A program made the translations under genes and the position numbers. Below the pieces are notes generated by a model, which saw only the letters and a list, made by a program, of their open reading frames with translations, had not been told where the DNA came from and ran no database searches. Below are positions 12,303 through 13,886 of a stretch of 64,000 nucleotides of DNA, in pieces. The stretch is from the NCBI RefSeq assembly GCF_023238205.1, contig NZ_CP096659.1, positions 1,550,001 to 1,614,000 on the forward strand. The letters are read 5' to 3'. The first letter of the stretch is position 1. Each line of letters opens with the position of its first letter. The DNA comes from Halorussus limi. Its GTDB lineage: Archaea > Halobacteriota > Halobacteria > Halobacteriales > Haladaptataceae.

Positions 12303-13886
12303 CTATCGCGTGATGTATCTCCCCAGTACAAAGACGAGCAGCGCCATCATCGCAGAACCGACGAAGGCCTCGAACATAGCGACCGCCCGCCCGAATCCCA
12401 TCGGTTGAACGTCCCCGTATCCGACCGTCGTGAACGTGACTACGCTGAAGTAAACGGCCCGTCCGAACAGCAGTAAACTATCGACGGAGACCGAGGACGT
12501 GTATCGAAGCGTCTCTCCTGTCGCGGTGTCCCTGAGGCCGAAAATCGGGTAGACCGCCGCCAAGAGGACCGAAAATACGATCGAGGAGCCGAGTACCCGG
12601 TACGGGTTCGTCGCGTACGCCGTCGTCCATCGAGACACGCCGGAGGCGACGGCACTTATCAACGACGATACGCGAGTGGACGTCTTCAGGTTTCGGTCGG
12701 TCGACTCGATGAGGGCGTTTTCGAGGGGTACCGAGTTCCGGTCGTCCGTCAGTATCTCTTTCGCGAGGTCCTCCTTCCGAGACGTGTCGTACCCGACTAC
12801 CGGCTTTCCGGTCATCGCTCGCTTCCATTTGGTCCTTCGGCGGAGGTTCTTGTCCGCGATGTACAGGTCGACACGTCTCTCCGAGAGCGAGTTCCTGTCG
12901 GCTACCTCCCGTAACCTCTTGTAACTCCACGTCGCCCGAATGAACCAGTCGTCGTACTCCTCGGCGTCGGTCTCGTACTTGGACGATTTCCCGAACCTCG
13001 TGTCGATATCGACGGTCACGTTGCCGAAACTCGCCTTGTAGATTGCTGCCTCGGTCAGCGACGCGCCACCGAGGTCCGAGTCGTCTAGTTTCGCTCGCTC
13101 CAAGTCTGCACGGTAAAACACCGCGTCTCTCAGGTCGGCGTTTTGGAGCGTCGCCTCGCCGAGGTCTGCTTCTGCGAAGTTGACACTCCCCCTGTCGAAG
13201 ATGTCTACGTCGGGGTGTTGGAGACCGATTTTCGGTGGGTTTCGCCACATCACAGGCCCGAGGTGCAAGAGCGGAGCGAGACCCCCGGGAACGACGCCCT
13301 TCCCGAACGCGAAACTCGTAATCCTATCTAAGTCGGCACGTCGCAGGGTCGCGTCGTAGAAATCGACCGACTGCAAGGTCAACCCCGAAAGGTCAGCGCT
13401 CGTGAGGTCCGCTCCCCAGAAGAGACACCTCGAAAACTGCGCTTCGGTCAGGTCCGACCGCTTGAGGTCGGCGTTGACGAACGTACAGTTCGAGAAGGTA
13501 ACGGGCGGCAGTTCGGTATCGACGAGTTTCGCTCCGTCGAGTCGTACTCTCGACGCGGCCGCCGGAGCAGTCGTCGGGTCGAAGTTCGGTCCGGCGTACC
13601 GCTTTTCGCGACTGTAGTACCGGTTTAGGAGTTCGTCGGTCGGTTTGTCGCTCTCCTCGGCGTGCCAGATGCACCTCTCGTCCTTCCAGACCTCCCGGTT
13701 GCAACAGTAGCTTCCAAGGTCGTACCGGTCGAGTTCGACGGTGTACCCGCAAACTCCGTCCGAAGTATCGTTCACTGATGGTTCGTACCGAGAAGACGGT
13801 AGAAATCTTTCTTTTTCGACATCGCTACTTCGACGCACCCGGAAGCAGACCGGCGAACCGATCGACGGGACGGGAAGCGAGTTCAC
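12303..13886 (-). CDS. pentapeptide-repeat protein fused to a potassium-channel pore
   Basis: A 527-residue protein in three parts. The first is an N-terminal Cys/His cluster (CGYT...YCCNREVWKDERCIWH, about 45-75) that could bind metal. The second is a run of A(D/N)Lxx pentapeptide repeats (about 110-180, and after an interruption 215-285) that should form a right-handed quadrilateral beta-helix. The third is a C-terminal two-transmembrane ion-channel module with a textbook K+ selectivity filter TTVGYGD (486-492) between TM segments at about 430-450 and 505-525. The first Met (13886) is taken as start; a GTG at VNDTSD is an alternative. The gene is single. Confidence 0.8.
   Translation of the reverse strand: MNSLPVPSIGSPVCFRVRRSSDVEKERFLPSSRYEPSVNDTSDGVCGYTVELDRYDLGSYCCNREVWKDERCIWHAEESDKPTDELLNRYYSREKRYAGPNFDPTTAPAAASRVRLDGAKLVDTELPPVTFSNCTFVNADLKRSDLTEAQFSRCLFWGADLTSADLSGLTLQSVDFYDATLRRADLDRITSFAFGKGVVPGGLAPLLHLGPVMWRNPPKIGLQHPDVDIFDRGSVNFAEADLGEATLQNADLRDAVFYRADLERAKLDDSDLGGASLTEAAIYKASFGNVTVDIDTRFGKSSKYETDAEEYDDWFIRATWSYKRLREVADRNSLSERRVDLYIADKNLRRRTKWKRAMTGKPVVGYDTSRKEDLAKEILTDDRNSVPLENALIESTDRNLKTSTRVSSLISAVASGVSRWTTAYATNPYRVLGSSIVFSVLLAAVYPIFGLRDTATGETLRYTSSVSVDSLLLFGRAVYFSVVTFTTVGYGDVQPMGFGRAVAMFEAFVGSAMMALLVFVLGRYITR

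Follow-up and report, generated by a model that had tools for sequence, protein, structure and literature searches.

A pentapeptide-repeat solenoid joined to a two-helix potassium channel pore in Halorussus limi and its relatives

One reading frame for a solenoid and a pore

The window is the whole stretch of DNA that was analyzed, 64,000 nucleotides of Halorussus limi (contig NZ_CP096659.1, positions 1,550,001 to 1,614,000). On its minus strand, a reading frame at 12303-13886 is open throughout for 527 codons from a GTG at 13886 and holds both a repeat domain and a channel domain. It is flanked by an ArgZ-like gene and a gene for an amidohydrolase. The N-terminus as first called, from 13886, appears too long. 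Codons 1 to 37 have a GC3 of 0.54 against 0.73 to 0.83 downstream and include an AT-rich stretch, and the sequence upstream of the first conserved cysteine is not conserved among homologs, many of which start a few residues ahead of that cysteine. Because GC3 is low in the first 37 codons and homologs start near the first conserved cysteine, the start is probably the GTG at 13775, giving a protein of 490 amino acids (Table 1). Public annotation of relatives names the pieces only, as "pentapeptide repeat-containing protein" or "potassium channel family protein".

Table 1. Features of the channel gene in the window
Feature	Positions	Strand	Basis
Coding sequence, most likely extent, 490 aa, GTG start 13775	12303..13775	-	GC3 drop upstream, homolog starts
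First 37 codons of the longer ORF, probably 5' noncoding	13776..13886	-	GC3, AT-rich stretch, homologs
C-C-C-H knuckle, putative metal-binding module	13662..13751	-	Conservation in alignments A1, A2, A5
Pentapeptide-repeat run 1	13323..13559	-	PF00805/PF13599, shuffle test, period-5 strand ladder in model
Pentapeptide-repeat run 2	12999..13226	-	PF00805 best stretch 236-273, shuffle test, model pLDDT mostly >90
TPR-like helical hairpin, solenoid to membrane part	12810..12953	-	Alignment conservation; model helices 275-294, 298-322
Pre-TM1 helix	12621..12725	-	AlphaFold2 model helix 351-385
TM1, outer helix	12540..12605	-	Hydropathy; AlphaFold2 model helix 391-412
Pore helix	12432..12485	-	AlphaFold2 model helix 431-448
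Selectivity filter TTVGYGD	12411..12431	-	Sequence; T450, G452, G454, D455 invariant over 51 rows (partly circular, see text)
TM2, inner helix	12309..12392	-	Hydropathy; AlphaFold2 model helix 462-489; constant tail length in relatives

The fusion of a solenoid to a K+ pore with a TTVGYGD filter, proposed with no strand given in an earlier note on this DNA, is borne out by Pfam matches, repeat statistics, and homologs. Ion_trans_2 matches residues 473-526 of the 527-residue form (E 5.4e-14, 52.3 bits against a gathering score of 22.5), and the canonical TxGYGD filter sits between two hydrophobic transmembrane helices seen as hydropathy windows on either side. The protein ends 35 residues past the filter, just beyond TM2, and a tail of 34 to 38 residues is constant in 78 relatives. 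The invariance of the filter over 51 aligned rows is partly circular, as many of those loci were found by means of the filter pattern. Ahead of the pore, Pentapeptide (PF00805, E 9.4e-24) and Pentapeptide_4 (PF13599, E 1.6e-15) match well above their gathering scores. The two repeat runs that the note had placed near residues 110-180 and 215-285 hold up. Run 1 (residues 108-188) has 14 of 16 units in phase (shuffle mean 2.8, maximum 9) and run 2 (residues 221-296) has 10 of 15 (shuffle mean 2.1, maximum 6), values unreached in 5,000 shuffles. Pfam, the shuffles, an AlphaFold2 model, and Foldseek agree on A(D/N)LXX repeats that form a four-sided beta-helix. Between the solenoid and the membrane part, the helical linker and a (C)GYGE-x-P-x-RV segment beside TM1 are among the best conserved parts of the alignments. 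By sequence, a profile of the linker searched against the PDB found no channel and no HalA, and returned weak TPR-like and other matches only.

The N-terminal cluster of Cys and His residues holds up as a strongly conserved C-C-C-H knuckle (C9, C25, C35, and H38, equivalent to C46, C62, C72, and H75 of the 527-residue form), and a metal site is plausible. With the probable start at 13775, the cysteine at residue 14 of the 527-residue form would fall outside the protein. The knuckle is invariant in all 17 diverse haloarchaeal rows of alignments A1 and A2, two of which lack the filter. In alignment A5 all four residues are present in 42 of 51 rows; two of the nine exceptions are merely trimmed at the start, and the other seven are gammaproteobacterial rows without the site, mostly by complete loss. 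Disappearance as a unit in one gammaproteobacterial subgroup is as expected of a putative metal site, and because that subgroup does without it, the knuckle is not essential to all such channels. Weak profile matches to DUF5763 (6 of 34 members, best E 0.0056) and to GvpO_arch_Nterm (6 of 32 members, best E 1.3e-4, where residues 7-27 of the member L113 are the knuckle) hint that it may be a small mobile module.

Distribution and unusual relatives

The solenoid-pore fusion occurs across Halobacteria, marine Gammaproteobacteria, Nitrospinota, and Planctomycetota, and the same order of modules (knuckle, repeats, helical linker, TM1, pore, TM2, end) is common to archaea and bacteria. The same genome encodes two further members, in open frames of 415 and 384 codons, and has nine Ion_trans_2 matches in all. 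A single-sequence search matched 164 of the order's 293 genomes, spread over 65 of its 87 genera, some of them through one domain only. A profile search at E <= 1e-20, run with profile A1 as A2 was too divergent, matched 47 of the phylum's 391 genomes, in some cases likewise through a single domain. Scanning genome contigs added marine Gammaproteobacteria (Shewanella, Vibrio, Pseudoalteromonas, Colwellia, and others), Nitrospinota, an Anammoxibacter metagenome-assembled genome (MAG), and a Thermococcus MAG, the MAG assignments being as labeled. A scan of viral contigs gave 32 pattern matches, none of them confirmed. In a tree built from linker and pore sequences, the haloarchaeal rows form one supported group (99/97) separate from the bacterial rows, and the window protein is divergent, on a long branch, with a top identity of 40% to a protein of the same genus. 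The earlier note had stressed the importance of a gated K+ channel in salt-in archaea; as marine bacteria also carry the fusion, nothing links it specifically to that lifestyle. Its description of the architecture as unusual was only half right, for many haloarchaea and marine Gammaproteobacteria have the fusion, and it has a solved full-length structural relative (see below).

Repeats and filter are retained together in nearly all relatives seen, and the few without the filter are L008 (772-2652), L015 (139-1488), and L153 (374-4405). The sign of a spurious fusion that the note had named, homologs lacking the filter or the repeat domain, is thus not what the family shows. There the knuckle, repeats, linker, and two hydrophobic helices are kept, the filter is destroyed, and the Ion_trans_2 match is absent. 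These three are possibly regulatory subunits. L008, from the same plasmid region as L134, adjoins a gene whose annotation reads NAD-binding potassium-transport protein. Solenoid length also varies widely, with about 17 units at the short end and well over 100 at the long end. Channels of about 1,150 residues or more at L151, L152, and L154 (genomes G110, G132, and G235) consist, before the pore, almost wholly of pentapeptide repeats; L151 was checked by Pfam, and L152 was read only as an open frame of 1336. Two giant relatives of about 1,358 residues from the first ATG, L150 (279-4352, minus strand, genome G110) and L155 (624-4697, plus strand, genome G044), run in a single frame from HEAT repeats through the C-C-C-H knuckle and pentapeptide repeats to Ion_trans_2. 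The pleolipovirus Haloarcula virus Harhisp1 (MW344767) encodes at L036 (4938-6254) a protein with the knuckle, repeats, and a C-terminal transmembrane segment and without a K+ pore. On haloarchaeal plasmids, at L038 (4899-6100) and L119 (4658-5789), the homolog is split into adjacent repeat and channel reading frames, for which frameshift, sequencing error, and a true split are the candidate causes. At L029 (1917-3017), the reading frame that follows a channel relative resembles, by eye, a type I restriction-type protein.

The gene appears to act alone, because no recurrent partner was found at the window, at plasmid loci, or at bacterial loci. A HalB nucleotidyltransferase was sought beside the window gene without success, and neither ten haloarchaeal plasmid loci nor the six bacterial loci at which flanking genes were scanned had a recurrent partner or a nucleotidyltransferase.

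Resemblance to HalA

AlphaFold2 modeled the window protein as a monomer with a mean pLDDT of 84.8 and a pTM of 0.79, and the 321-residue Bermanella homolog with values of 92.7 and 0.85. From the N-terminus onward, the prediction runs through the knuckle, a helix, the beta-helix, a pair of TPR-like helices, the pre-TM1 helix, TM1, the pore helix, and TM2. In Foldseek searches of the PDB, the beta-helix matched known pentapeptide-repeat proteins, and the sole full-length match that combines these parts was 9nyi, HalA with oligodeoxyadenylate (E 5.3e-7 over 475 columns, 9.3e-6 over 322 columns). The overall fold, a cytosolic domain plus a channel domain, matches that of HalA over nearly the full length, with a loose superposition on 9nyi (rmsd 9 to 13 Å, TM 0.32 to 0.45). 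Because the rmsd is high and the TM score low, the domain orientations in the model differ from those of HalA, and the match speaks for a common module order and common folds rather than a common domain arrangement. HalA is the effector of the Hailong anti-phage system (Tan et al. 2025, as cited in PMC12657230 and PMC13275509), and PMC13275509 describes it as an ion channel blocked by poly-dA and controlled by a DNA ligand.

The window protein could therefore be imagined as a HalA-type anti-viral effector, a channel that a nucleic-acid signal keeps closed until infection, when it would open and arrest the cell. Consistent with such a role are the full-length fold match, weak matches of the NCBIfam HalA profile (NF051894) in 20 of 32 homologs, the location of some members on plasmids, and the relative of the N-terminal half in Harhisp1. 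We consider this role unlikely, however. No HalB-like nucleotidyltransferase or other conserved partner lies beside the gene, and the gammaproteobacterial copies sit amid unrelated chromosomal genes. Moreover, NF051894 matches the window protein over the repeats only, at 30.2 bits against a cut-off of 250 bits; none of the genomes searched passes that cut-off, and the control genomes do not pass it either, so that the absence is weakly supported. PADLOC likewise gave no match, although its library is older than Hailong. On the profile score, its confinement to the repeats, and the lack of a HalB-like neighbor or conserved partner, we rejected filing the protein as HalA.

Proposed gating and comparison with known channels

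We conclude that the gene probably encodes a stand-alone K+ channel gated by its cytosolic solenoid, with the knuckle as a metal or redox site. Four subunits would assemble a KcsA-like pore from TM1, the pore helix, the TTVGYGD filter, and TM2, which presumably selects for K+ in practice. The N-terminal half, comprising the knuckle, the beta-helix, and the TPR-like linker running into TM1, would lie in the cytosol. A putative cytosolic ligand on the solenoid, or a change of metal or redox state at the knuckle, would shift the linker and TM1 and thereby open or close the pore; a binding partner is a further candidate trigger. As the protein ends after TM2, any built-in sensor has only the N-terminal side through which to act; since, moreover, the segment beside TM1 is highly conserved, solenoid and knuckle would gate the pore by way of the linker and TM1. 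A pore of this kind in haloarchaea would pass K+ as dictated by the membrane potential and the large K+ pool inside the cell, and in marine bacteria osmotic or potential control would be an equally likely function.

Alternatively, the solenoid might be a scaffold or localization module on a K+ leak channel that stays open constitutively and that the repeats do not control. The wide variation in solenoid length is as expected of such a module, but the linker and the segment by TM1 are too well conserved for the idea to be other than quite improbable; moreover, the invariant knuckle suggests a sensor, and a DNA ligand, according to PMC13275509, controls the structural relative HalA. That a frameshift or an annotation error produced the fusion by chance, as the split homologs on two plasmid groups might have suggested, is ruled out as near to impossible by homologs, in which the module order recurs in one open frame in archaea and several bacterial phyla.

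That the fusion is widespread as a stand-alone gene, in haloarchaea as well as marine bacteria, suggests that potassium channels with internal gating form a large class that has so far gone unstudied. Potassium channels are classed by their sensor domains, and a pentapeptide beta-helix before the pore would be a distinct sensor type. A literature search that covered few subscription journals found no characterization of a pentapeptide-repeat/K+ channel fusion and no characterized K+-selective member with such a beta-helix before the pore. We speculate, tentatively, that the class is large and ancient, that its solenoid has a metal-binding tip and senses a cytosolic ligand or metal state, and that HalA is a specialized phage-defense branch. 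The fold match makes a common origin of the defense channel and the stand-alone channel testable, and small bacterial members such as the confidently modeled Bermanella protein are good structure targets.

KirBac, RCK, and CNG-type channels place their sensor after the inner helix. The window protein has TM1, a pore helix, T-[TA]-[VL]-G-Y-G-D, and TM2 in common with KcsA, KirBac, and other two-helix K+ channels (Pfam Ion_trans_2, IRK), but its regulatory part lies N-terminal to the pore, and the chain stops after TM2. With the stand-alone pentapeptide-repeat proteins HetL, NP275, MfpA, and Qnr it shares the four-sided beta-helix, by sequence and by fold, but those proteins are soluble and lack a membrane pore. 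Members also resemble DUF5763 and the N-terminal domain of GvpO from halophiles, by weak profile matches only. HalA is alike in its full-length solved structure, in pentapeptide-type repeats that the NCBIfam HalA profile matches, and in being described as an ion channel. The window family differs from it in the C-C-C-H knuckle, in neighbors without HalB, and in sequence, which is similar in the repeats only; HalA nevertheless already shows a channel of such a fold under the control of a DNA ligand.
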